From assembly GCA_002070955.1 (NCBI GenBank), contig MWEK01000009.1, positions 62,001 to 126,000 on the forward strand: 64,000 nt of DNA, given 5' to 3'. Position numbers and translations under genes: made by a program. This DNA is from Planctomycetes bacterium ADurb.Bin069 (GTDB lineage: Bacteria; Planctomycetota; UBA8108; UBA8890; UBA8898). A model generated the notes under the pieces. It saw nothing but the letters and a program-made list of their open reading frames with translations. It was not told where the DNA came from and made no database searches. Positions 31,390 to 45,752 of the stretch are shown piece after piece; within the stretch, counting starts at the first letter, position 1, and each line of letters starts with the position of its first letter.

Positions 31390-31920
31390 CTACGGATTCG
31401 GCGGCGGCGCCGCAGGCGGCTTGGAGCCCTCGGGCGCGGCTTCCTCGCCAATCTGCGGCAGGTGCTTGCGCCAGTATGTCATCGCCGAGACGTACGCCAT
31501 GGCCAACGACCCGACCACGGTGAGACAGTTGCTGACGTCGACCACGTTCTCAACGACGAAACCGAGGACGGGCAGCAGGCTCGCCACCGGAATCGCGTGC
31601 CGCTCCAGGTGCGGCGGAAGGAACTTGACCGCCAGCACCTTGAGCACGATCAGGACCAGGACCGCGAGGGCGCCGAAGAAGGAAAGCAGCGGGAACCAGT
31701 GGGAAAGCCCACGGAAAGCCCACCCGCCTGACCGGCTCCACATGATCACCCACCCGATCAGAACGAGCACCGCCAGCACGAAAACGATCTTCTCGACGAG
31801 CGGCAGCTTCTTGATGTTGCCCGCAACATCCGGGCCGGGGGCCGCCGGCGCGGGAGTGGGCGCGGTTGCTTGATCCGGCGGCGCCGCCGGCGTTTCGGGA
31901 GTAGTCGGTTGTTCGGTCAT
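31390..31920 (-). CDS. Hypothetical four-helix membrane protein
   Basis: The 176-residue protein has an ATG after GGAAGGAAC. Residues 1-40 are Pro/Thr/Ala-rich and probably cytosolic. About four hydrophobic helices follow, at roughly 47-67, 75-95, 103-125 and 130-150, ending in a charged Pro-rich tail. The helix pattern resembles small DUF-type membrane proteins with no assigned role. I do not recognise the family. Confidence 0.65.
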   Translation of the reverse strand: MTEQPTTPETPAAPPDQATAPTPAPAAPGPDVAGNIKKLPLVEKIVFVLAVLVLIGWVIMWSRSGGWAFRGLSHWFPLLSFFGALAVLVLIVLKVLAVKFLPPHLERHAIPVASLLPVLGFVVENVVDVSNCLTVVGSLAMAYVSAMTYWRKHLPQIGEEAAPEGSKPPAAPPPNP

Positions 31921-32095
31921 AATCGTTCCTTCCTTTCCTGCATCACCCATACCCTTTCACGCGCGCGCGCGGGCCGTCCCCGCGCCCAAGGCGCGCCTGC
32001 GTCCTCACCGCGCGGCGTCCCGAAGCGTTTTCGATCGCATTGCGACGAGGACGCCGCGCGCATATTCGCAACGACGGCCGCGGCCGACAAGCGGC

Positions 32096-33019
32096 TCAGA
32101 GCTTCGCCCCGCAGCCGCCGCAGAATTTCACGCCGGCCTCGAGCTTGGCGCCGCAGTTCGGACAGAAACTCTTGGCGGCGGCCTCCGGCGCGGGGGCGGC
32201 GGCGGCGGGAGCCGCCGCCGCCGGGGCCGTCACGGCAGGGGCCGCGGACTGCTTGGCGGTCTTCGTGAACTCCTCCAGCACGCTGTCGATGTCGGGCAGC
32301 ATCTTGCGGACCGCGTCATCGAGCGCGAGCCTGAGAATCTTGCCCTTGTCGTCCTCGCTGATCTCGAGATTCGCGTCCGCCTCGGCGCCGGCGCCCAGGA
32401 TCTCGATGCCGAAGGCCCCGATCGAATCGATGCGCTTGAACTCGCCGAAGTGGCTGGCCTTGACCTCGCCGGAGGAGGGTTGGACGAGCTTGAGATCGAC
32501 CCCGCATTCGGCCACCACCTTGGTGTCCTTCTTTTTGTAATCGAATCCGCCGATGCCCAGAAGCGGTATGTTGCCGAGGCCGAACCCGCGTGACGCGCTC
32601 TCCGTCTTGACGCGCAGGTTGGTGACCTTGCCGTACATGAGGTAATCCACGCCCCGCACCTGGCCGGCTTTGGCGAGCTCGTCGGTCTTCACGATGCCTT
32701 CCAGATTCTGCTCCGCGAGGAGCTGGTTGAGCTGGTCGCGCTCGATGACGGTGAAACGCCGTGTCTGGTATGCGAGGGTGGAAAGCTGGGCCCCGGCGAA
32801 GCTTTCGAGCGATCTGGTGCTTCCCTCCCCGATGATCGTGAAGTTCGGCACTCCGAGCCGCGGCTTCGCCAGGCCGGGAGGAGGAGGCGGGTATATTCCC
32901 ACGTGGGCCGTGAGCTGATCGCGCTCCGCCGATTCGCTTGACGATGCGCACCCCGAGAACGCAACGAGGCCGAAAACCCCGGAGACGCACGCGACGAAAC
33001 CGAGCAAGGCAGACTTCAT
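32096..33019 (-). CDS. CsgG-like lipoprotein with C-terminal zinc ribbon
   Basis: The 307-residue protein has an ATG with GGAGGATATCT. The signal peptide ends in the lipobox AFSGC (Cys24). The middle shows the CsgG pattern: LGVPNFTIIGEG, RRFTVIERDQLNQLLAEQNLE and VDYLMYGKVTNL. CsgG-type proteins form outer-membrane secretion channels or assembly lipoproteins. After an Ala/Pro linker the chain ends in a zinc ribbon with two CxxC knuckles (FCPNCGAKLE...KFCGGCGAKL). A cysteine ribbon on an exported lipoprotein is unusual, and the neighbouring 1545-residue exported protein ends the same way. Confidence 0.85.
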   Translation of the reverse strand: MKSALLGFVACVSGVFGLVAFSGCASSSESAERDQLTAHVGIYPPPPPGLAKPRLGVPNFTIIGEGSTRSLESFAGAQLSTLAYQTRRFTVIERDQLNQLLAEQNLEGIVKTDELAKAGQVRGVDYLMYGKVTNLRVKTESASRGFGLGNIPLLGIGGFDYKKKDTKVVAECGVDLKLVQPSSGEVKASHFGEFKRIDSIGAFGIEILGAGAEADANLEISEDDKGKILRLALDDAVRKMLPDIDSVLEEFTKTAKQSAAPAVTAPAAAAPAAAAPAPEAAAKSFCPNCGAKLEAGVKFCGGCGAKL

Positions 33020-33080
33020 AGATATCCTCCGTGGAAAAAGCTGCGTCAAACGCGCCGTCGGTAAACCTCGGAACGACCGG

Positions 33081-33101
33081 GGCTTACCTATAGGCTTACC
33101 T
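33081..33101 (+). repeat. 9-bp direct repeat in the leader of the CsgG-like gene
   Basis: GGCTTACCT occurs at 33081-33089 and 33093-33101, a 12-bp period. It lies between the predicted start site and the ribosome site of the lipoprotein gene. Confidence 0.5.
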
Positions 33102-33114
33102 CTAGGATCGGCTC

Positions 33115-33143
33115 ATTCTCTCCAATAATTTCGCCAATTGCAA
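33115..33143 (-). promoter_or_regulatory. Predicted promoter of the CsgG-like lipoprotein gene
   Basis: On the minus strand TTGCAA (33138-33143) and GAGAAT (33115-33120) are separated by 17 AT-rich bases. Confidence 0.45.
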
Positions 33144-33191
33144 GCGTTTTCCGCGCCTAAATCGCGGCGCGGCGGTTCACCTCCCGGCCGT

Positions 33192-36100
33192 TCATTTTTC
33201 CGGTATTCTCGCGCCGCAGCTCGTGCAGAACCTCCCGCCCGGAGGCAGCGCGGCTCCGCAGCTCGTGCAGAACTTCGCGCCGTGCTTGGGCTGATCTTCC
33301 GCTTTCGCGGGCGGTTGCGCCTGCGCGGGCGGTTGCGCCTGCGGCGCCGCGGGGGCCGCCGCCGGCGCCCTCCCGGCGCCCGCCATCTTCGCGGCCGCGC
33401 CCGCATCGAAGCACACCGACGTCACGGCGTCCGTGTTGATCCAGAACTCCTCCTCGAACGCGGCGCCGGCCAGTTCCGTCCTGAGGACGTACTTGCCCTC
33501 GGGGAGCTTTCGCGAATCGCCGAAGACGCCGCGGCCGACTTCCCGCCGCCGCTCACCGAAGAGCTCGTAACCCGAGGGAGTTCCCAGGACGGCGGCGCGC
33601 AGCTCCCGGGTCAGATCCGCCGCGCGCGCCACCGGCCAGTAGGTTCCCTTGGCGAGGCGCGCCATCTCGGCGAGCTGAGCCCTCCAGTCCTCCCGGTTGA
33701 TATCGAAGCCCACAATGTGCAGCTTCACGTTCCGGAGGCGCCCGAACTCGGCGGCGGCGGCCAAGGGGTCCTGCCGCGGGAGCGTATCCTCGCCGCCGTC
33801 GGTGAGCAACACGACCGTGACCGGCGCGGATTCCGCCGCGCCGGCCAGATCGTGCACGGCCTCGCGGAGACTGAGGGCCAGCGGCGTCTTTCCCCGCGGC
33901 CTTAAGGCGCGGAGCTTCTCGCCGAACTTCGTACGATTGAGGGACCCCATGGGAATTTCGAGCGCCGTGTCCTCGCTGGAGCCGGCTTCCAGCGCCGTTT
34001 TCCGGTGGCCGAAGACCCGCAGGGCGACCGGCGCGCCCGCCGGGATCTCCCGCGCGATCGACTCGACCGCCTCGCGGGCGATCTCGAACTTCGCGCGCCC
34101 GTCGATCGCATCGCGCATCGACCCCGAGGCGTCGAGCACTAGATAGAAACGTCTCTCCGGCTCCAGTGCCACCGAGGTCCGGAGCGTCCCCGACCCTCCG
34201 CGCGCCAACTCCTCGCTGAGCCGCGGCGTCGCGCGCGTCAGAAAAAGGAGAGCGAAGCTCGTGTCGAGCCGGGGATTCTCCTGGTCCTTCGAAACCCAGG
34301 AGCCATCCTCATTCTGGGCGTCCACGAGGTAGCGGGCGCCCAACGGATACCACTCGTGCTCGCCGATGAACTCCGTCCCCAGAATCCGGCCCACGCGTTC
34401 GAGGGAATAGAGATAATAGTAGTGCCAGTCTTCGCTCTCGGGATTTCCCTTGACGCTGAAGCGCGCGGCCAGCCAGGCCAGGCCCCGCTCGATGCCCACA
34501 TCGGCGCCGGGATCGCTCTCCCCGAGGTGGAAGCGGTTGATCGCCAGCGCGCAGATCCCCGCGCAGGTCATGCTGCCGTACGAAGAACCGGTCGTGTAGC
34601 CCCAGCCCCCGTCCTCCTCGTTCTGCCGTTTCCGGTACGCGGCCAGGCACTTCGTCCACACGTCGCCGGGCAGCCGGAAGTTGCAGCGCGCCGCCGAGTG
34701 CATGCCGAGCAGCGCGAACTGGGAACTGGAATTGTCGCCATCCTGGCCCGTCTGCCACGGGGTCATGCGCGCCATATCCTCGCCCGCGGCGCCGGAGCCG
34801 TCGAGCGCCCGCCCGCCCGAGATGCGCAGCGCCTGCGGCTTCTCTTCCAGCTCGCCGAAAACCTCCTTCGGGATCTTGGCGCTGTAACCCCAGGACCCCT
34901 CCGGGCCTTGCGCCTCGAGGAGGTACCGCGCGGCCGCGCGCAGCTTGGGCAGGAAGGCCGGGTCGCCGTAAGACTCGATCAGCATGGCGAGCACGCCGTT
35001 CTCGTAGCAGCCGAGTCTCTCGACGGGCCGCGCCGCCGCGATGCACCTGCGAATCGCCGCGTCGATCGCTGGATCCTTGTGGTGCGCGCCCGCGTGAACG
35101 AGGGCCAGGGCCAGGGGAAGATCCTGGTTTTCGGAACCGATGGCCGGCTGCCGGTACTTCACGTTCTTCAGGGCGAGTTGCCACAGAAACGCGCTGCCGC
35201 GGTCGATGGCGCGGTTCACGTCCTCGGCCCGGAGGCCCACGCCCTCGAGGCCGCGCGGCGTCCGGTCGCTGCGCGCGCGAACGCGAGGGGCTTCCCTCGC
35301 GTCGATCTTCGCCGCCGGCGCCGCCGCGGGCGGCGGCGGCGGTGTCTTCGGCGGAGCCGTCGCCTCCTTGGGCGGAGCCGGCGGCTTCGTTCCCTCCGCC
35401 TCGCCTCGCGCCGCGGGAGCCGCGGCGACTTCGGGCGGCGCCGGCGGTGTCTTCGGCGGAGCCGCCGCCTCCTTAGGCGGGGCCGGCGGCTTCGTTCCCT
35501 CCTCCTCGCCTCGCGCCGCGGGAGCCGCGGCGCCTTCCTTGGCCGCCGCGGCAGGCGGCTCCGACTCAATGGGCAGCAGCGCGATGACCTCCGCTTTCGA
35601 CACCCCGGCGTACACCAGCCGCGGCGCGCGCTCCGTCGCGGCGATGCGGAAGACGACCTGGAACGACCGCGCCTCGCCGGCGGGAATCCATACGAGCGCG
35701 CCCGGCCTGCGCGGACCGCGCTCGGTCACGGCGTCGGGCGGGGACTGCGAGCCATCGGCCGCCGCGTACGCGAGCTGCTCGGCCGTTTGGAAGAACTCGC
35801 CGCTCTTGCCGGAGTTCCTCACCGTCACGTCGAGCACGAGGAACCGATCGCTCCCGGCATCCTCGCCGGCGAAGCGCGCCGCCACGGCCTGCCCCGCGAC
35901 TGAAAGCAGGAAGAAATCGTCCTTCACGGACGCGATGGCCGCGCGCGGCGGCGGCGACGGCCGCGCGCCCTCGAGGGGCAGCGTGATACCGGCGGGCTTG
36001 AGGATCTTCGACGATCCCGGCACTTGGGCATTGGGGAAATCGCAGCGCAGCTCCAGCGACGCGGACGCCTCGGGCGCCAAGAACACGGCGAAGCCTCCCG

Positions 36101-37829
36101 TGAAGATGTCGGGCAGGAAGCGCGGTTCGGCGTCGAGCTCGGTCTCGGGCTCGACCGCGCGGCCCAGCACGCCGTCGATGACCAGATGCAGATAGCGCCG
36201 CGACTCCTTCCAATCCGCCACGGTGCCCACGGAAACCTTCGCGCCCGGCCGCGCCTTGGGATCGAAGGCCGTCGCGTCGGCCTGGGTGACGGCGAGGCTG
36301 CGCGCCCGGAAGTCGACGACGACGAAGGTCTCGCCCGGGGGCGCCGCGCGGCCCGCGAACTCCGCGGACTTCCGGACGCCGAACACGGCGGCCTCCACGA
36401 CCTCGTTCTTCGCCGGCCCCGCGATGGGCTGCTCCCGCTCCACCGGTCCGGCGGCGAGCAAGGGAATCTCGCAGAATCCGTGGACGAAATCGTAGAACCG
36501 GAGGTCGAGACGCGTGGGGAGCGCGCGGGCGTCCATCTCATAGATGAGCCGCCCCTCGGCCGTCGCGCCCGCATGGGGCAGCTCGAGCAGCTCCAGGCTC
36601 AGGGCGCCGGCCACATCGGCCGATTCGCGCGGGCGGATCACGGCGCGTCCCTCGGCGACGAGGTACAGATGGTCGGCGAGGCGCGGGATGCGGTAGGCGA
36701 TGGGAACCTGCTGATCCCTGACCACGGCGGGGGTGAGCACGTTACGCCAGCGCGTGTCGATGACGAGGAAGCGCCGGCCTTCCGGGGCGCGCGCGGAGCC
36801 GAACGCATCGAGCCACCCGAGCGAACGCACCTCGATGACGGCGGCGCGGTTCCTCCCCTCGACGCCGGCCGCGACGAGCTTGCCGGGCTCCAGGTGCGCG
36901 AGAGGGGCCGCCGGCTCGGGCGCGGGCGCCGCGCCCTCCGGGCGCGGGCGCCGGGGGGCGAACGCGAAGCGCCCGGCCGTCTCGGCATAGGCCGCCGAAG
37001 GCGTCTCCGGGGGCGCGAGCTGCGCCACCGCGCCGCGCGCCCCGGCGGCGTCGAACACGATCGCCGCCGCCGCGCCGCCGCCCGGCGGGGATAGGAAGAT
37101 CTTCCGCTCGGGCGCAAAATCGCGGGCGCCGCCGCCCCTGCCCGAAACGATGACGGCCCGGACCTTGGGCGAGCTCGCGGCCCAGGCGGCGGCATCGGCC
37201 GGATCGGCGTCGGCCAGAATCACGACGGCGTCGGCCGCCGCGGCCGCCTTGGGCACCGCGGCCGCGATGGCCGCGCCGGGTTCGACGAATTGAAGCCCCG
37301 GCACGACGCCGGCGTCGGGAAGCTCCATCGACGGCGCGCGGACGGCAATCCCGACGAAGGCGGTGGCGACCCCGCCGCGCGTCACCACGACGAAGTCCTT
37401 CCACGGCGTGTCGCGGCCGGCGGGCAGGCGGAAACTGGCCGACACGAACCGCACCCCGGCGCGGCCGATCGCCTCCGCCAGCGCGGCCGGGTCGCCCGCC
37501 AGATCGCGGTGAGCGAGGTTCACCACATCGAACGGCACGGCCGCGGCGAGCGCCGCGGCACAGGCCGCCCGTTCGGCCGGCGGCGCGCCCGGCGCCGCCA
37601 GCGCGCCGCCCGTGCAGGCGATGAACGCCTCCTTCTCGATCCCGAGCGCCGCGAGAAGACGCTCCCGGCCGAGCTCGGCCGCGGTGGCCTCTCCCAGGTC
37701 GCAGAGATGGACGATCGGAGGCGGGGGCGCCGCCGCGACAGCGCCCATTGCGCTCCACACCACGCACACCGCCGCGGGCAGAAACGCCCGCCGCGCCTTC
37801 GCGCCCGCAGATGACAATTTGCGGCTCAC
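33192..37829 (-). CDS. Giant exported protein: squalene-cyclase-like repeats, VWA domain, zinc ribbon
   Basis: The 1545-residue protein starts at GTG 37829, overlapping the stop of the upstream gene by four bases, so the two are coupled. Domains in order: a signal peptide (about 12-33); a metallophosphatase/CapA-like region (about 38-260, HLCDLGEAT, VVNLAHRDL); beta-rich segments; a Pro/Ala/Lys repeat; alpha-toroid repeats of the prenyltransferase/squalene-oxidase type (about 880-1200; EGSWGYSAKIP, DGGWGYTTGSS); a von Willebrand A domain with MIDAS DASGS (1233-1237); and a C-terminal double CxxC ribbon. The role is unknown. VWA MIDAS sites bind proteins through a metal ion. The combination recalls planctomycete proteins. 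Confidence 0.85.
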   Translation of the reverse strand: MSRKLSSAGAKARRAFLPAAVCVVWSAMGAVAAAPPPPIVHLCDLGEATAAELGRERLLAALGIEKEAFIACTGGALAAPGAPPAERAACAAALAAAVPFDVVNLAHRDLAGDPAALAEAIGRAGVRFVSASFRLPAGRDTPWKDFVVVTRGGVATAFVGIAVRAPSMELPDAGVVPGLQFVEPGAAIAAAVPKAAAAADAVVILADADPADAAAWAASSPKVRAVIVSGRGGGARDFAPERKIFLSPPGGGAAAAIVFDAAGARGAVAQLAPPETPSAAYAETAGRFAFAPRRPRPEGAAPAPEPAAPLAHLEPGKLVAAGVEGRNRAAVIEVRSLGWLDAFGSARAPEGRRFLVIDTRWRNVLTPAVVRDQQVPIAYRIPRLADHLYLVAEGRAVIRPRESADVAGALSLELLELPHAGATAEGRLIYEMDARALPTRLDLRFYDFVHGFCEIPLLAAGPVEREQPIAGPAKNEVVEAAVFGVRKSAEFAGRAAPPGETFVVVDFRARSLAVTQADATAFDPKARPGAKVSVGTVADWKESRRYLHLVIDGVLGRAVEPETELDAEPRFLPDIFTGGFAVFLAPEASASLELRCDFPNAQVPGSSKILKPAGITLPLEGARPSPPPRAAIASVKDDFFLLSVAGQAVAARFAGEDAGSDRFLVLDVTVRNSGKSGEFFQTAEQLAYAAADGSQSPPDAVTERGPRRPGALVWIPAGEARSFQVVFRIAATERAPRLVYAGVSKAEVIALLPIESEPPAAAAKEGAAAPAARGEEEGTKPPAPPKEAAAPPKTPPAPPEVAAAPAARGEAEGTKPPAPPKEATAPPKTPPPPPAAAPAAKIDAREAPRVRARSDRTPRGLEGVGLRAEDVNRAIDRGSAFLWQLALKNVKYRQPAIGSENQDLPLALALVHAGAHHKDPAIDAAIRRCIAAARPVERLGCYENGVLAMLIESYGDPAFLPKLRAAARYLLEAQGPEGSWGYSAKIPKEVFGELEEKPQALRISGGRALDGSGAAGEDMARMTPWQTGQDGDNSSSQFALLGMHSAARCNFRLPGDVWTKCLAAYRKRQNEEDGGWGYTTGSSYGSMTCAGICALAINRFHLGESDPGADVGIERGLAWLAARFSVKGNPESEDWHYYYLYSLERVGRILGTEFIGEHEWYPLGARYLVDAQNEDGSWVSKDQENPRLDTSFALLFLTRATPRLSEELARGGSGTLRTSVALEPERRFYLVLDASGSMRDAIDGRAKFEIAREAVESIAREIPAGAPVALRVFGHRKTALEAGSSEDTALEIPMGSLNRTKFGEKLRALRPRGKTPLALSLREAVHDLAGAAESAPVTVVLLTDGGEDTLPRQDPLAAAAEFGRLRNVKLHIVGFDINREDWRAQLAEMARLAKGTYWPVARAADLTRELRAAVLGTPSGYELFGERRREVGRGVFGDSRKLPEGKYVLRTELAGAAFEEEFWINTDAVTSVCFDAGAAAKMAGAGRAPAAAPAAPQAQPPAQAQPPAKAEDQPKHGAKFCTSCGAALPPGGRFCTSCGARIPEK
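35341..35535 (-). repeat. 105-bp imperfect tandem repeat encoding a Pro/Lys linker
   Basis: Two copies, beginning at 35341 and 35446, encode a segment of the form PAARGEaEGTKPPAPPKEA followed by APPKTPPxPP. It forms a flexible linker before the alpha-toroid domain. The second copy is slightly shorter. Confidence 0.85.
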
Positions 37830-40168
37830 TCGTCACTCCCTTCGACCATGTCGCCGACATCGAGGGCGCCGCCGAGGATATCGCCTATCGAGCCAAGCAC
37901 CCCGCCGGTAGTCTCCCAGCCCATGACGCTCAAGGTGTTGCCCGCCGCGCCCATGGGCCCGCCGGGATTGTCGACGCCCGTGATGCAGGCCATCCAGGCG
38001 ACAGCCGCCTTCGGGTCGCGCTGGTTGCCGAACATCATGGCGCTCTGCCACGCCAGCATGCACTTGAGGTTGCTCAGATTCATCTTGGTGATCTGGAGGT
38101 ACTCTATCGCGGACTGGCCCTCGCCCGCGCCGCCGCGGCCGAGGGTCGCGCCGGTGGCGCGATCGACGCTCCACCAGCTTGCCGCGCCGTCCCGCCGCGG
38201 GAAGAGAAGCGCTCCTCCGGTTTCGTTCCGGGCGATGGCCCAGGCGCCGAGAGGATCCGGCCGCGCGCCCGTCACGGCGCCGTTTTCGCCGCGCTGGGCG
38301 GCCACGGGCGCCAGCCCCTCGAGACGGGCCCTCTGCGCCTCGGGGTAGGCGCCGCGAGCCATGGCATCGGGCCGATGGCGCCGCAGGATCGCCGACTCCA
38401 GCACCGTCGATGCCGCGCCCAGGGTCATGTTGGCGCGCGGCGCCGACGCAACGCCCTCGGCGGCGCGCGGCAGCATCTGCGCGCGATCGAAGGCGACGTC
38501 GAGCGCGACGCGGACGCCGGCGGTCTTCGTCTCGGCCTTCACCACGAACTGCGACGTCTGCAGGACGGCCGCCGGGCCTCCCAGGAAGGACAGCGCGCGC
38601 TCGGCGCGTAGAATTCGATCGGCGAGGGCCAGGCGGCCGAGCTGCCAGTCGTGGAGCATGCTCGGGCACCGCCGCGCGTCAGGCCCATCATCGAAGCGCC
38701 GCGCGTCCTCCGAAAGCAGCGCCCGCGCCAGGATCGGCGCGTTCGCCGTCACGGCGTCGAGCGCGAGCCAAGCCGCCGTCGCGGGTCCGAGCGGTCCCGG
38801 ACAGACGAGCATGTCGGCGATGTAGACGGGGCTCACGTCGCGGCGCAGGTCGCCGTAGATGAGGCGTTCCTGGGACGCGGGTTCCTCTCCGGGCAGCACG
38901 ACCTCGAGGCTGAGGACAAGCTCGCGGATGCCGGTCTTGGCCTCCGGTTCGCTTTCTCCTCCGAAGAGCCCGCCCAAGCCTCGGGCCGCCGCGCCCAACT
39001 GCTTCGCGCTCTCGACGCGGCCGTCGGCGGCCACATCATGGACGCCGCCGTCCAGATCGAAGACCTTCGAGCCCATCCAGTCATCGCCGGCGCGGAAAAT
39101 CGCCTGGAATTGACGGAAGCCGCGCACGCGCTCGTACCACTCTTCCGGCGTCCACTGGGCCGGCGGCCGCGCCGCAGCCTTGGAGTCCACCGGAACGATC
39201 TCGAGGCGCAGCGGTCGATCGACGAGTTCGCCCAGGGCGTGCGTCCAGTCGACCAGGATCGTGGCCGCGCCTTCCTGTCCCTCGGCACCCGTCACGAGCG
39301 TAAGCCGGACGCCCGCGCGGGCGACCAGTTCGGGCGGCGGCGCGTCGAGGCGCTCGGTCGCATCCAGGCGCGCGGCGTCCGGCGCGGATGCCTCGGGCCC
39401 GGGGGAGAGGACGCGGGCCGCGTCCTCGACTTCGATTTCGACGAGGACTCTTTCCGCGGCACCGGCGGCCAGCGTCTTTTTCCATGCCGCCAGGTCGTTC
39501 CACGCGGCCAGGCCGGCGGCCGCCACGGACCGCTCGATCCGGACCGCCTCGGGCGCGGCGGCATCAAAAGCCTCGTCGAGAAGACGCCGCCATTGCGCCG
39601 CGCCCCGGCGGAGATGGATCGCGCGGTTCTCCTCGGGAATGCCGAAACGCCGGAGCAGCGGCGGTGGGGGCGGGAGCTTCGCTAGATCCACCTCTCCGCC
39701 CGCGGGGAGCGTGCGCCGCCGCGGGTCCTCTCCAAAAAATCCGCCGACCACCGCGGCCGCTTCGGCCGGCGTGCGCTCGATCACGACGAACTTCGCCTCG
39801 TGCCCCGCCGCGGAGAGAAGCGCCCGCAGAAGCTCGGCGCGGTCCCAATCGCCGCCCGAACCGGCGGCCAAAACGCCCGCCGAGCCGCGCACGATGCCCC
39901 GGTACGGCTCATAGGCGATGTTCGCGCGCACGAACGCCGCCAGAGCCTCAGGATCGATTCCAACCTGCATCACGACGGCCGCCGGGCTGAAAGGACATTG
40001 ATCCGGCCGGAGGCTCTCGGCGCGAGCCGCGCGGGCGTAGCGCTCGTACTTCTGGACCGCGTCCTTGGAGGGGCCTCTGGGCGCATCCGCCGCCGGCAAC
40101 GACCCGAAGGCAAGGAGGGCCGCCAGGAAAACCGCGGCTGGATTGGCGCGCTGCATGATTCTTCCCAT
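37826..40168 (-). CDS. Exported protein with degenerate transglutaminase-like domain
   Basis: The 780-residue protein starts at the ATG with GAGAGG six bases upstream (a second ATG four codons on lacks spacing). Residues 5-25 form a signal peptide. The N-terminal domain (about 50-130) has the transglutaminase-core pattern ANIAYEPYRGIVRG...GDWDRAELLRALLSAAGHEAKFV. Where active enzymes have GDC, this reads GDW, so the nucleophile appears lost. The remainder is long, mostly beta and helical, with an RHRPDA segment and no further domain I recognise. It overlaps the giant VWA gene by four bases and probably acts with it. Confidence 0.75.
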   Translation of the reverse strand: MGRIMQRANPAAVFLAALLAFGSLPAADAPRGPSKDAVQKYERYARAARAESLRPDQCPFSPAAVVMQVGIDPEALAAFVRANIAYEPYRGIVRGSAGVLAAGSGGDWDRAELLRALLSAAGHEAKFVVIERTPAEAAAVVGGFFGEDPRRRTLPAGGEVDLAKLPPPPPLLRRFGIPEENRAIHLRRGAAQWRRLLDEAFDAAAPEAVRIERSVAAAGLAAWNDLAAWKKTLAAGAAERVLVEIEVEDAARVLSPGPEASAPDAARLDATERLDAPPPELVARAGVRLTLVTGAEGQEGAATILVDWTHALGELVDRPLRLEIVPVDSKAAARPPAQWTPEEWYERVRGFRQFQAIFRAGDDWMGSKVFDLDGGVHDVAADGRVESAKQLGAAARGLGGLFGGESEPEAKTGIRELVLSLEVVLPGEEPASQERLIYGDLRRDVSPVYIADMLVCPGPLGPATAAWLALDAVTANAPILARALLSEDARRFDDGPDARRCPSMLHDWQLGRLALADRILRAERALSFLGGPAAVLQTSQFVVKAETKTAGVRVALDVAFDRAQMLPRAAEGVASAPRANMTLGAASTVLESAILRRHRPDAMARGAYPEAQRARLEGLAPVAAQRGENGAVTGARPDPLGAWAIARNETGGALLFPRRDGAASWWSVDRATGATLGRGGAGEGQSAIEYLQITKMNLSNLKCMLAWQSAMMFGNQRDPKAAVAWMACITGVDNPGGPMGAAGNTLSVMGWETTGGVLGSIGDILGGALDVGDMVEGSDE

Positions 40169-40218
40169 GAGAAACCTCTCGATATCGCTGAAATTCCTGC
40201 CTTCGCAGAACCGGTATG

Positions 40219-40247
40219 ATTTTAGCCACCACACTCCCGGGAAACAA
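40219..40247 (-). promoter_or_regulatory. Predicted sigma-70 promoter for the transglutaminase-like/VWA operon
   Basis: On the minus strand TTGTTT (40242-40247) and TAAAAT (40219-40224) are exactly 17 bp apart, about 45 bp upstream of the predicted ATG at 40168. Confidence 0.55.
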
Positions 40248-40327
40248 CGATAATCGCGGTGGAAAATCTTCGCGGTTCCGCGCGGCGGGCTCTTGCGCGT
40301 TCCCGCCGGTCGGTTCAGAATCCGGCC

Positions 40328-41443
40328 ATGGCCGCAGGCATCAGGGTCGTTCTCGATATGACCAGCGCCGCCAAGCCGCGGCGGGGAGGCCTCCGGAGCT
40401 ACATCTGCCATCTAGCCCGCGTCCTGGGAACGCATGCCCCGGATATCGAGCTTGTGCGCGGCATCCGGGCGGCGCATTACCGCGACCGCGCGTTCCTGGC
40501 CGAGTTCGCGCCCCTGCGCCTGCTGCCGCCATTCCGGACCTTCGGCGCCGGAATCTATCATGCGCCGGGCGCCAAGCTGCCCTGGAGCCTTGCGGGGCGC
40601 GGCTGCGCGCGGATCGCCACGCTTCACGATCTCGGCGTCTTCGATGCGCCCGAGCTCTACGACCCCGGGTGGGTGCGGCGGCGGCGGCGGCGCATCGCGC
40701 AGACGGTGCGGCGCGCCCAGGGGATCATCGTTTACACCAACCACACGCGCGACCGGGTGCGGCGGATCTTCCCGGGGTACCGGGGCGCCATCGATGTGAC
40801 GCCGCTGGGGGTCGACCATGCGCGCTTCTCGGCGCAGCCCGTGCCCGAGGACGAGGAGACCGTGGCGCGCCTCGGCATCGATCGGCCGTACGTTCTGGCC
40901 GTTGGCGCCCTCGCCGAGCGCAAGCAGCCCATGGCGCTCGTGCGCGGCTTCGCGGCCTCCGCTCACGCGCACCGGCACGCTCTGGTTCTCGTGGGCAAGG
41001 CCGTCGATGCCCAGGTGTGGGCGCTCAGCGCGGCGGCTCGAGACGCGGGCATCGAGACGAACCTCGTCCTGCCGGGCTACGTGCCGGACAGCGTGCTGCC
41101 CGCGCTCTATCGCCGGGCGCAGGCCTTCGTCTTCGCCTCGAAGTACGAGAGTTTCGGCCTTCCCATCCTCGAGGCCTTGGCGTGCGGCGCGCCCGTGCTC
41201 ACCACCGCCGCGAGCTGCCTGGGCGAGGTGGCGGGCGACGCGGCGCGCTACTTTTCCCACGACGATCCGCCGTCCCTCGCGGCCGAGCTCGACAAGGTGC
41301 TCGCCGCGGACCGGCAGGAGGCGCAGGCCCGCAGGGAGCGCGGCATCGCCTGGAGCGCGCCCTTCACCTGGGAGCGCACCGCCGAACTCACGGCGGAATG
41401 CTACCGCCGTCACGCCGGCGGAGGCGCCGCCGGCCCCGAGTAG
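40328..41443 (+). CDS. Glycosyltransferase family 1 (GT-B, GT4-like)
   Basis: The 371-residue protein has an N-terminal Rossmann half starting IRVVLDMTSAAKPRRGGLRSY, with a FHDL-like TLHDLGVF block. The C-terminal donor half contains YVLAVGALAERKQ, VLPGYVPDSVLPALYRRA and the nucleotide-sugar block KYESFGLPILEALACGAPV with the E-x7-E pair. Such enzymes extend capsular, lipopolysaccharide or glycoprotein sugars. The start is uncertain: ATG 40328 has no clear ribosome site, and an in-frame GTG at 40259 has none either. It diverges from the transglutaminase-like gene over a shared promoter region. Confidence 0.9.
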   Translation: MAAGIRVVLDMTSAAKPRRGGLRSYICHLARVLGTHAPDIELVRGIRAAHYRDRAFLAEFAPLRLLPPFRTFGAGIYHAPGAKLPWSLAGRGCARIATLHDLGVFDAPELYDPGWVRRRRRRIAQTVRRAQGIIVYTNHTRDRVRRIFPGYRGAIDVTPLGVDHARFSAQPVPEDEETVARLGIDRPYVLAVGALAERKQPMALVRGFAASAHAHRHALVLVGKAVDAQVWALSAAARDAGIETNLVLPGYVPDSVLPALYRRAQAFVFASKYESFGLPILEALACGAPVLTTAASCLGEVAGDAARYFSHDDPPSLAAELDKVLAADRQEAQARRERGIAWSAPFTWERTAELTAECYRRHAGGGAAGPE

Positions 41444-41679: not shown

Positions 41680-43575
41680 CTACCCGCCGCTTCCCTCCCG
41701 GCGTAGAAGCAGCGACCGGGCGGTTGGATCGCGCCACGCGTTGACCAGGGCGCGCACCTCCTCGAACGCCGCGGCGGGCGCCTCCCCGGTTTCAAGGGCG
41801 ATGCGCCGCAGGATGCGCAGCGAACCGTCGGGGCGCGCCTCGACCGCGACCGTGACCGCGCCCAAGGAATTCCGCACGCAAAGCGAGGCCGGCAACGCGA
41901 CGATCTTCATGCCGGCAGGCAGGGCGAGCGTGAGGTCCAGCTCCTCGACGCCCGGCCCCGGGAGCGCCACGGGGCATGCCCGCGCCAGCGGCGCGAGCAC
42001 GGGCAGCGCCGTCTCCACACCCCCCGCGATGGCGCTCGCATCGAGCGTGAGAAACCCGAAGGCATCGGCCGCGGGCAGCGCGCCCTCCAGCGCGCATGTC
42101 AAACTCCCCTCCCGGCGTCCGAGCGCGGTGACGCCGGCATCCTTCGCCTTGCCGCCCGGAAGCAGCCGCGCGGCCAGATCATCCGCCAGGCGCTGCGGCT
42201 CGCGCACCAACGTTCCGTGGGGTAGCGCGCCGCCGGAGGCGGAAAAGCTCAGCGTCCCGCGCACGGCCCCGTCCTTAGCCACGGCGCCGGTGAAAACCGC
42301 CGTGCGCCGCCATGCCGGCGCGGCCGGCGTGGCCGCGCCCGCGCCCAGTTCTCCGTGAAGGACGGGCCCATCGAGGGCGGCCTCCAGCGGCATGCCGCGC
42401 CCCGCCTCGCGCGGATCGTACAGGCGCCACGCGCCGCCGGGATCCTTGACCCGGACGAGCGCGCGCTCGAAGCCCGCCAGCGCGGGACATTCCGGAACGG
42501 CCGGCCCGCGGACCCCGGCAAGGGCCGGACGAGCCGCGATGCCCAAGGCCTCGAGCGCCGCCGCCTGGAAGACGGCGATCTCCAGCGGCGTGGCGACACC
42601 GGCGCGCCATACCTCCGCCAGCGGCGCGGGCCGCCAACCTTGGAGGGCCGGCCCGACGGCGCCGGCCGCAAGCTCTCCGGGGAGCACATCGAGCGCCGCG
42701 AGGACGCGCCGCTCCCAGTCCGTTTCCTTGTCCGCGGCCGCCTTGACCGCCGCGAGCGCCTCGGGAGGCACGGGGCCCGCCGCCGCGGCGCGGCGCGCGA
42801 ATTCCTCGCCGAGGGCGGCGAACCCCGGGCAGGTGCTCACACGCAACAGCGGCACGCACGCCGCGCGCGGCGGCGCGTTGGGCTCGTCGGGCACGGCCGG
42901 CGCGCCGGTGCGCCACCAGACCCACACGGCGCTCCCCGAAACATCCGGTTGCGCGGGCCGCCCCCAGGGCACGCCGCCGTCCGCGGGCAGGCCGGCGACC
43001 CCGCCGCGCAGCCGCACGCCGGCGGGCAGCTCGATCCGCACGACCCGCTCGGCGATGGGGATCTCGGCGGCCATGGCCTCGTTCACCTCCAGCCACGGGA
43101 ACGCGTCCGGCCGGTGCGTCAGGCGCCAGCCAAGCTCGATGACCGCGCCCGGCTCCAGCGCCGTGTGCACGAACACCCGCCGCCCGAGCCGCGACCAAAG
43201 CGGGTTCCGATGCGCGGCGGGCGGCAGGTCGTCGATCACGGCGTTCTCGGGCGCGGGGACGACCCGGCCGTTCGGGAGCACCGTGCGGTTGTGGAGCGTT
43301 TCGATGGCCGTCGTCGCGGGGTCGAACTCGACCCGGCTCTCGCCGTACAGGCGGTGCATCGCCACGAAGCTGTTGATCTTGAGGCGCACCGTGCGCTCAT
43401 GCACGATGCCGCCGTCGCTTTCCAGAACGTAGCGATCCTGAAGAAGCAGGTATTCGGCGTCAGGGCCGGGCACCGCCGCGAAGGCCCGGCGCGCCGCCGG
43501 CGCCTCGGCGGCGCCGGCGCAGGGAAGGCTCAAAACCGCGGCGAGCGCCGGGCCGAGAAGGAGAACGCGCTTCAT
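41680..43575 (-). CDS. DUF3857-type protein with degenerate transglutaminase domain
   Basis: The 631-residue protein has an ATG overlapping the stop of the preceding gene (ATGA). Residues 1-20 are a signal peptide. The N-terminal ~240 residues have the DUF3857 pattern (DRYVLESDGGIVHERTVRLKINSF, VIELGWRLTHRPDAFPW). The second domain aligns with the transglutaminase core but reads ATPLEIAVFQAAALEALGIAARP, where an active enzyme has GVCKDKA, so the catalytic Cys is absent. The C-terminal domain is beta-rich. It is paired with an intact relative just upstream and is probably a structural or regulatory partner. Confidence 0.82.
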   Translation of the reverse strand: MKRVLLLGPALAAVLSLPCAGAAEAPAARRAFAAVPGPDAEYLLLQDRYVLESDGGIVHERTVRLKINSFVAMHRLYGESRVEFDPATTAIETLHNRTVLPNGRVVPAPENAVIDDLPPAAHRNPLWSRLGRRVFVHTALEPGAVIELGWRLTHRPDAFPWLEVNEAMAAEIPIAERVVRIELPAGVRLRGGVAGLPADGGVPWGRPAQPDVSGSAVWVWWRTGAPAVPDEPNAPPRAACVPLLRVSTCPGFAALGEEFARRAAAAGPVPPEALAAVKAAADKETDWERRVLAALDVLPGELAAGAVGPALQGWRPAPLAEVWRAGVATPLEIAVFQAAALEALGIAARPALAGVRGPAVPECPALAGFERALVRVKDPGGAWRLYDPREAGRGMPLEAALDGPVLHGELGAGAATPAAPAWRRTAVFTGAVAKDGAVRGTLSFSASGGALPHGTLVREPQRLADDLAARLLPGGKAKDAGVTALGRREGSLTCALEGALPAADAFGFLTLDASAIAGGVETALPVLAPLARACPVALPGPGVEELDLTLALPAGMKIVALPASLCVRNSLGAVTVAVEARPDGSLRILRRIALETGEAPAAAFEEVRALVNAWRDPTARSLLLRREGSGG

Positions 43576-45596
43576 CAGACACCTTCCTTTCCGGCGCGGG
43601 CGGGCCGCAGGAGAATCGGCGTCGCCGCGAGCTTCCGGAAAGCCTCGAGCGCCGCGCGCAGCCCGGGCCATTCATCAGGCTCGATGCGGCGCGAGCGCAT
43701 GGCGAGCGTCTCCTCCACGACGAGAACGCCGTCCGCGATGGACCACTTGGCATCGAGGGCGCCGTTGCCATCGAGCGCCACCGCCGCGGGGAGCCCCTCG
43801 ACGGCGAACCCCTTGGGAAGCTCCATGCGCTCGGCGAGGGCGACCAGCCGCGTGCAGCCGATCCTCGCGGTGAAGCGCCGTGTCGCCGGCCCGGTGGGAA
43901 AAGAAATCTCCTCGCTCTGGAGCGCCACGCCGACGGGGTGGCGCGGCCCCAGCGGGACCAGGAGGAGCGCCCCATCGTCGAGCTTGCGCGCGTAGCCCGG
44001 AATGCGGAAGGAAAGCGCCAGCGTGAAGGGGCGGTCGAGATCGTCCGGATCGATTCGTTCGACATCGGCCACTTCGGCGCGCGCGTCGAGCGCGGCGATC
44101 CATTGGCGGTCCACCGCCGGCCATTCGTGGCGCATGCGGCCGCGGTAGGCGCGCCGCACCGCGGCGTCGGACTGGCCGTCGCTCGCGAGCCGCATGCGCC
44201 CCTCGATCGTTCCGTCGGGGCGCAGCGCCGAGTCGATCGTCACCCGCAGCGGGTGGTTCTCGGGCGGAGACAGCGGCGTCGTCATCAGGTCGGCGCCCTC
44301 CGGGAGCCCCATCAGGACTTCCTGCTGCTGCTCGCGGCTGGACCACATCTCGCGCACCCCCGGAATCCAGGTGGGATCCAGGAGCACGGTCGTGGCATCG
44401 GGCTTGCGCCACACGGTCACGCAGTGGTTGAAATGGTCGGCGGCCAGGCGCTCGATACGCTCGCCGGCCATCGTCATGGCGGCGTAGGATTCGAGGCCCG
44501 CGGCCCTGAGCAGGGCGACGAGGATGCCCGCCTTGTCCTTGCACACGCCGCCGCGGTCCCGGAGCGTCATCGCCGCCGGGTGGAGCGTGTAGCCCTCGCC
44601 CGCTCCCATGTGGAGCCCGATGTAGCGGATGTTCTCGGCCACCCAGTGGTTGAGGGCCGCGACCTTGTCCTCGTCGCGGGTCAGGCCCGCGGTGATTTCG
44701 CCGGCGACCCGCGCCAGTTCGGGCGTCGTTTCGAAACAGCGGGCTTCCTCCTGGACGGCGTGAAACCAGAGCGATTTAGCGCGCCAGTCGCGCGCCGTCG
44801 TCAGGAGCAGCTTCGGCCCCACATCGGACCAGGCGACCATGCCGGGTTCGGAGGGCGGCGGCTTCATGTCGCGCATGGTCACGGTCACGACGCGCAGGTC
44901 GTTCTCGATGCTGTCCGAGACCTCGGCGCTGCCGTTGTAAATCCGGTATTGGAGATGCTTTTCGGGCGCGATCGCGACGCGGTAGCTTTGCTCGATCACC
45001 GGATAGCGCGACCAGAAGGGCACGATATCGTAGAAATGCCCCCGCATGGGGGGCACGAAGCGGCTTTCATCCCCTCCGGACCCGCCCGCGAGCAAGGCGT
45101 AGGTGAAGCCCGCGCGCCGCGTCACGACCTCGACCGCCTCGCCGGGCGCGATCCTGCCCACGGGGAGCAGCTTGTGGCGCGAGTTCCAGTAGATCATGCT
45201 TTGGGGGTCGGGGAGGTCGAGCGCGGAGGCCGGATCCACCGTGCGCGCGGCGCCGCCCGCCGAAAAAACGCGGCAGCGCAGGACGGCGATGGCGGCGGAC
45301 AGCGGGTCGTAATCGTATTGGCCCACGACGAGCGCCCGCGCGCCGGCGGGGGTAAGCGCCTTGGCGAGGGTGTGGCGGACGGTCCGCGCCAGCCCGCTCT
45401 CCTCGACCGCGACATCGCTCCGATCGAAGACCATGACCAGGTCGGCGCCGGGATAGGCGCCGGCCGAGACCGCAGCAAGCTTCTTGGCGAGAGTCTCGGC
45501 GGGGACATCCCACGGTTCGGCCGCCGCGGCGCCGGCGGCAAGCAGCGCCGCCAAGGCCGGCGCGAACGCGCGGCTTCCTCCTCTCGGATTCCTCAT
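43575..45596 (-). CDS. DUF3857/transglutaminase protein, catalytic residues intact
   Basis: The 673-residue protein has an ATG with GGAGG seven bases upstream and a signal peptide (about 8-26). The DUF3857 beta domain (YDYDPLSAAIAVLRCRVF, KLLPVGRIAPGEAVEVVTRR) is followed by a transglutaminase core with Cys in RGGVCKDKAGILVALLRAAG, His in ADHFNHCVTVW and Asp in VLLDPTW. Members are exported cysteine enzymes with transamidase or peptidase folds; substrates are unknown. It is the first gene of a two-gene coupled unit with the degenerate paralogue. Confidence 0.88.
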   Translation of the reverse strand: MRNPRGGSRAFAPALAALLAAGAAAAEPWDVPAETLAKKLAAVSAGAYPGADLVMVFDRSDVAVEESGLARTVRHTLAKALTPAGARALVVGQYDYDPLSAAIAVLRCRVFSAGGAARTVDPASALDLPDPQSMIYWNSRHKLLPVGRIAPGEAVEVVTRRAGFTYALLAGGSGGDESRFVPPMRGHFYDIVPFWSRYPVIEQSYRVAIAPEKHLQYRIYNGSAEVSDSIENDLRVVTVTMRDMKPPPSEPGMVAWSDVGPKLLLTTARDWRAKSLWFHAVQEEARCFETTPELARVAGEITAGLTRDEDKVAALNHWVAENIRYIGLHMGAGEGYTLHPAAMTLRDRGGVCKDKAGILVALLRAAGLESYAAMTMAGERIERLAADHFNHCVTVWRKPDATTVLLDPTWIPGVREMWSSREQQQEVLMGLPEGADLMTTPLSPPENHPLRVTIDSALRPDGTIEGRMRLASDGQSDAAVRRAYRGRMRHEWPAVDRQWIAALDARAEVADVERIDPDDLDRPFTLALSFRIPGYARKLDDGALLLVPLGPRHPVGVALQSEEISFPTGPATRRFTARIGCTRLVALAERMELPKGFAVEGLPAAVALDGNGALDAKWSIADGVLVVEETLAMRSRRIEPDEWPGLRAALEAFRKLAATPILLRPARAGKEGV

Positions 45597-45752
45597 GCGC
45601 ACCTCCGTTCCGATCCATCATAAGGGAAGGCGGTGAAACCGAGAAGCGGAGGGCGCGCGGCCGAGCTGCCGCCGCGACGCGCGGCGCGGGCAAGAAAAGG
45701 CCGCGCGGCCCCTTGGGGAATCCACCGGCGATGAAGGCCGACCGCGCCGGGC

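Follow-up and report, generated by a model that had tools for sequence, protein, structure and literature searches.

Two adjacent genes of a planctomycete, referred to here as A and B, encode large, apparently exported proteins in which enzyme folds that have lost their catalytic motifs are combined with a metal-dependent binding domain, and in most loci a gene for a CsgG-family lipoprotein adjoins them. We propose that A and B form an exported scaffold which, together with the CsgG-like lipoprotein, takes part in assembly at the surface, in anchoring or in secretion, a reading to which we give a probability of about 0.42. It draws on the conserved linkage of the genes, the identities of their domains, the loss of catalytic motifs and the retention of an intact MIDAS. 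The DNA analyzed, called the window throughout, is a stretch of 64,000 nt from contig MWEK01000009.1 of assembly GCA_002070955.1 (Planctomycetes bacterium ADurb.Bin069); the genome to which it belongs (G000) comprises 4.55 Mb and is 88.5% complete.

A conserved pair of genes

Gene B (37826–40168, minus strand) encodes a protein of 780 residues that is apparently exported and carries a transglutaminase-like domain without catalytic residues, and gene A (33192–37829, minus strand) encodes an apparently exported multidomain protein of 1545 residues. The two reading frames overlap by four bases, as the earlier note had described: the stop codon of B and the start codon of A share the GTGA at 37826–37829 on the minus strand, and the same overlap is found in a genome of the same genus (G001) and in G076. 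In alignments with the same-genus orthologues, A is 80% identical with a dN/dS of 0.29 and B is 77% identical with a dN/dS of 0.23, values which indicate real genes kept by purifying selection. Each protein starts with a signal-peptide-like stretch that was judged by eye, as was the lipobox of the lipoprotein described below. A good promoter common to both genes had also been claimed; a scan of the minus strand from 31900 to 40500 for one promoter type, sigma-70-like, found no such site, and we do not retain this claim.

A query with the middle region of A gave 10 matches in the 392 genomes searched for the phylum and five in the 29 of the class. The count for the phylum is a lower bound, since A proteins without the middle region escape the profile; a divergent eleventh A, in G145, came to light by way of its B alone. 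All ten A-matched genomes also have B, and in all but G017, which is split by contig ends, the two genes are neighbors on one contig. These ten genomes, together with a second pair in the window’s own genome and the pair in G145, make up the 12 loci considered here. Conservation of the pair in other genomes had been put forward as the main test of the earlier note, and the pair is indeed conserved: in 10 of the 12 loci B immediately precedes A in the same orientation, in G145 only a CsgG-family gene stands between them, and in G017, the twelfth locus, both A and B are truncated where contigs end. Apart from the window, G001 and G076, where the GTGA overlap occurs, B and A are separated by 1 to 99 bp. 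The B profile has a wider distribution (38 of 392 genomes), most of its matches outside the A-bearing genomes covering only the transglutaminase-like core. A good B match in G290 (E 4.9e-58) lies on a short contig on which no A was recognized; the CsgG gene of G290 is cut by a contig end. Planctomycetes bacterium UBA4800 was the one relative returned by a contig search of named genomes, so the distribution given here rests on the set of 392. The further pair in the window’s genome (locus L050, 4405–11360, contig C29) is a diverged B-A pair with no adjoining CsgG gene, its A being about 50% identical to that of the window in the matched regions.

A CsgG-family lipoprotein beside the pair

The lipoprotein gene downstream of A (32096–33019, minus strand) encodes a protein with a lipobox-like stretch up to a conserved Cys and with a C-terminal zinc ribbon, and this product scores 62.4 bits against PF03783 (CsgG; cut-off 20.8; E 4.8e-17). 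A CsgG-family gene adjoins the pair in 9 of the 12 loci, although the A-bearing genomes are related and such linkage counts are not independent trials. Three gene orders occur: B-A-CsgG (G000, G001, G076), CsgG-B-A (G015, G047, G390 and, with two CsgG copies, G312; G017 shows CsgG-B up to the contig end) and B-CsgG-A (G145). The pair stands without an adjoining CsgG gene in the second locus of the window’s genome and in G013 and G165. Nine of the 11 A genomes have a single PF03783 match (G000, G001, G013, G015, G017, G047, G076, G165 and G390), and in seven of these nine the single gene is the copy at the pair (in G017 beside the B fragment), the exceptions being G013 and G165; in the multi-copy genomes, one of two CsgG genes (G145) and two of three (G312) are at the pair. 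When the 392 genomes were searched with a profile of this CsgG group, whose rows include sequences from A-bearing genomes, 116 matched at E 0.001 and 15, counted by eye, at E below 1e-60, with all 11 A-bearing genomes falling within those 15.

The clearest indication of a functional link between the lipoprotein and the pair is that three gene orders occur. It might instead be held that A and B are partners and that the CsgG gene is incidental, encoding a generic planctomycete lipoprotein often found near genes for envelope proteins, as the three loci with the pair alone would allow. The CsgG subfamily also occurs without A in G007, G217 and G130, so the lipoprotein is independent of A and B, and no homologue of A or B was found near it in G217 or G130. 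We nonetheless consider this account unlikely: the adjacency holds in nine loci, in three orders and mostly with one CsgG gene per genome, and while common descent explains part of this, it would be difficult to account for contact kept through re-ordering if no link existed.

CsgG-like domains and LpoB have a common fold, which opens a further account in which A and B form a periplasmic complex for cell-wall or lipoprotein homeostasis and the lipoprotein, neither pore nor anchor, serves as an activator of the LpoB type. The LpoB profile does match the window’s lipoprotein weakly (E 0.0018), but the CsgG profile match given above is far stronger, and in hhalign comparisons E. coli LpoB aligns with the lipoproteins in the signal region alone. 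The corresponding alignment with CsgG has an E of 5e-6 and covers the N-terminal part, the first 93 columns only. At what we take to be the membrane-hairpin positions of CsgG, the lipoproteins keep long segments, similar in length to those of E. coli CsgG, where LpoB has almost none; this difference is suggestive, not decisive. We judge the LpoB-like account to be improbable as well, while noting that membership of the CsgG family, as assigned from profiles, does not prove a pore.

Other genes in the vicinity of CsgG-like genes may be recorded here. What appears to be a small membrane protein, with no Pfam family assigned, is encoded at 31390–31950 (minus strand) of the window, adjoining the CsgG gene, and is kept beside CsgG only in the same-genus genome (71% identity over 121 residues). 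Tandem pairs of CsgG-like lipoprotein genes occur in several planctomycetes (L120, 8770–10262; L121, 9471–11004; L122, 8663–10322; L102, 6094–7751), three of these four loci being without A or B. In G290, another Cys-rich, exported-looking protein follows CsgG (L123, 615–2828).

Folds without catalytic motifs in A and B, and an intact MIDAS in A

Residues 22–290 of A (36960–37766, minus strand) have a predicted 5'-nucleotidase/UshA-type metallophosphatase fold. The profile of this domain matches 5'-nucleotidases of the PDB (E 1.3e-11), and its predicted structure (pLDDT 81, pTM 0.66) aligns with CD73 and other 5'-nucleotidases over 260 residues with a Z of 22.7 and an rmsd of 3.4, the best Foldseek match to 5'-nucleotidases having an E of 1.2e-10. 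The NCBIfam model NF041198 (UshA_like_PCGU) is matched by six of six A proteins (best E 2.8e-18) and by the A of G145 (E 1.2e-24), although the A proteins with bit scores shown reach only 17 to 87 bits, far under its cut-off of 275. Profile alignments show the positions of GD, GNHE, SH and GHxH, which we take to be the metal-ligand motifs of 5'-nucleotidase/UshA, to be replaced in A, and a motif search found GNHE and GHxH in none of the 11 A proteins that have an N-terminus. The N-terminus of A thus has, as judged from profiles and models, a 5'-nucleotidase/UshA fold stripped of its metal-binding motifs, and this dead domain is the constant part of A proteins. A CapA-like region had earlier been read in A; the N-terminus proves to be UshA/5'-nucleotidase-like instead, and CapA (capsule protein, presumably PF09587) is absent from the list of 13 families reported for A at E values up to 10, a search in which HMMER filters may lose weak matches. 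The CapA-like assignment was dropped, since the 5'-nucleotidase fold accounts for the region. Two divergent A proteins (L103, 5477–11068; L106, 5495–8680) have a CxxC-type N-terminal motif, as in UshA-like (seleno)proteins, that the window’s A is without.

The N-terminal domain is followed by three predicted beta-sandwich domains (residues 319–750, 35580–36875, minus strand; approximately 319–458, 470–620 and 633–750) that are weakly DUF4352-like and form the best conserved part of six aligned A proteins, with a mean column identity of 67% vs 53% for the whole protein; no relative of this region that would point to a viral origin was found among viral contigs. A linker rich in Pro, Ala and Lys and variable among orthologues (residues 757–854, 35268–35561, minus strand) leads to a squalene-cyclase-like alpha toroid (residues 855–1214, 34188–35267, minus strand), whose repeats score under the Pfam cut-off while several homologous planctomycete toroids score over it. 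Motif patterns found neither DxDDTA nor CGEQ, presumably the motifs of squalene-hopene cyclases and of thioester (TED) domains, respectively, in any of the 12 A proteins, and on this ground we reject the idea that the toroid has cyclase or thioester chemistry.

The VWA domain (residues 1227–1400, 33630–34151, minus strand) exceeds its Pfam cut-off and presents a complete MIDAS (DASGSM at 1233–1238, T1315 and D1344), of which the DxSxS, T and D are invariant in the six-protein alignment. A CxxC-CxxC zinc ribbon (residues 1518–1542, 33204–33278, minus strand) ends the protein, its 24.4 bits falling just short of the cut-off of 25. The squalene-cyclase-like toroid, MIDAS-bearing VWA domain and zinc ribbon that the earlier note had recognized in A are therefore present, with the VWA domain above its cut-off, the ribbon just under and the toroid under their own. 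The toroid and VWA domain cannot be regarded as universal central parts, however, since motif patterns place the VWA MIDAS (DxSGSM) in 11, the toroid in nine and the zinc ribbon in seven of 12 A proteins, a set that includes the C-terminal fragment from G017. The A of G312 has no VWA domain, its last parts being the beta-sandwiches and a zinc ribbon, and that of G145 has no toroid and was missed by the beta-region profile. Zinc ribbons here end apparently exported proteins, the ribbon of A resembling that of the CsgG-like lipoprotein.

In B, residues 61–283 (39320–39988, minus strand) are predicted to adopt a transglutaminase/papain-like fold in which Asp107, within GGDWD, occupies the position of the catalytic Cys. 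The model of B (pLDDT 70, pTM 0.74) gave no Foldseek match at E 0.001, and only VIA-align recovered the transglutaminase-like region, with a moderate Z of 8.3 to an axonemal chain (residues 61–278; rmsd 3.3, 118 aligned) and Z values of 5.6–7.8 to arylamine N-acetyltransferases. These moderate values agree with the matches of five of six homologues to Pfam Transglut_core (PF01841; best E 3.6e-6), the window’s B itself falling under the cut-off (E 0.024). The claim of a transglutaminase fold without its Cys thus holds, and it holds across the family: in nine B proteins the Cys position is Ser in five (GNSLD), Asp in two, Ala in two and Cys in none. The His of HxWVQ and the Asp of DLDP are kept in seven of the nine and lost in the window’s B, and the HxWV His is likewise lost in its same-genus orthologue. 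Some 500 further residues of B have no known family assigned to them here; within them, residues 665–690 (38099–38176, minus strand) form a conserved motif, WWS-D-TG-GR-GEGQ-EY, whose W665 and W666 are invariant in nine of nine proteins. Across the three dead-fold regions and the VWA domain of A and B, the VWA MIDAS is the sole intact motif. The Ser of the GNSLD homologues, with the His and the Asp-side region so often kept, could be taken to point to a Ser-His-Asp transglutaminase-like enzyme working in an unusual way beside a remodeled phosphatase domain in A, but the Asp at the Cys position of the window’s B, its loss of His and Asp, the Ala of two homologues and the absence of nucleotidase metal motifs from 11 of 11 A proteins make such activity very unlikely.

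Two overlapping DUF3857 genes lie at 41680–43671 and 43575–45602 (minus strand) of the window. The product of the upstream gene has a transglutaminase core with its Cys (GGVCKDKA), and that of the downstream gene has a core that matches weakly and looks degenerate. Gene B may therefore have a live/dead transglutaminase pair close by.

Proposed role and relation to known systems

An envelope role for A and B is plausible, given the signal-peptide-like starts of both proteins and the CsgG-family lipoprotein that so often accompanies them; the adhesion, protein capture or surface display put forward in the earlier note is conjectural. In the mechanism we propose, A and B would be exported and would form a physical complex in which the 5'-nucleotidase domain, the transglutaminase domain and the toroid would carry out no catalysis and would serve as binding surfaces and spacers, while the VWA MIDAS would bind a protein ligand via a metal ion. 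The CsgG-like lipoprotein would position this assembly at the outer membrane, where it may capture, anchor or help export surface proteins. CsgG serves curli and HfaB serves holdfast, the two systems from which CsgG-type lipoproteins are mainly known, and the assembly proposed here might play a part comparable to that of the auxiliary components of those systems, although we do not class it as a curli or holdfast system. A bolder possibility, which we regard as doubtful, is a new outer-membrane machine in which dead-fold assemblies of A and B gate or decorate a CsgG-type ring, giving a mode of secretion or anchoring without a described counterpart.

Each part of the system has known relatives from which it departs. 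The N-terminal region of A (residues ~22–290) is like UshA/5'-nucleotidase and NF041198 in fold and sequence and differs in its lost metal-binding motifs and low family score; B is like the transglutaminase-like superfamily in the fold of residues 61–283, and in sequence for most members compared, and differs in the replacement of the catalytic Cys by Asp, Ser or Ala in all nine proteins. The neighboring lipoprotein resembles CsgG/HfaB-type lipoproteins in profile score and, less decisively, in segments of hairpin length, whereas its C-terminal zinc ribbon (8 of 12 aligned CsgG-like rows) and its apparent partners, A and B, set it apart. Planctomycete squalene-cyclase-like toroid proteins are 31–51% identical to the toroid of A among the non-A matches listed, and DUF4159 scores above its cut-off in two of seven toroid relatives scanned; in A, by contrast, the toroid is fused to dead nucleotidase and VWA domains. 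The idea of substrate capture by a VWA domain is common to A and the VWA-MoxR ternary systems, in which the VWA domain is proposed to capture protein substrates as part of a system built on a MoxR ATPase (PMC7159879); A and B, by contrast, are apparently exported. No MoxR or other ATPase was found among seven window proteins scanned. Nor did A, B or the CsgG-like lipoprotein have a match among the anti-phage defense profiles of PADLOC at E 0.01. The domains of the three proteins are known singly, and their combination was not found in the open-access literature searched, which lends weak support to its novelty.

Planctomycete cell surfaces are poorly understood, and the conserved unit of A, B and the CsgG-family lipoprotein provides a defined set of genes with which surface assembly may be tested. 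More broadly, A and B would represent a striking case of several catalytic folds re-used together as a scaffold.
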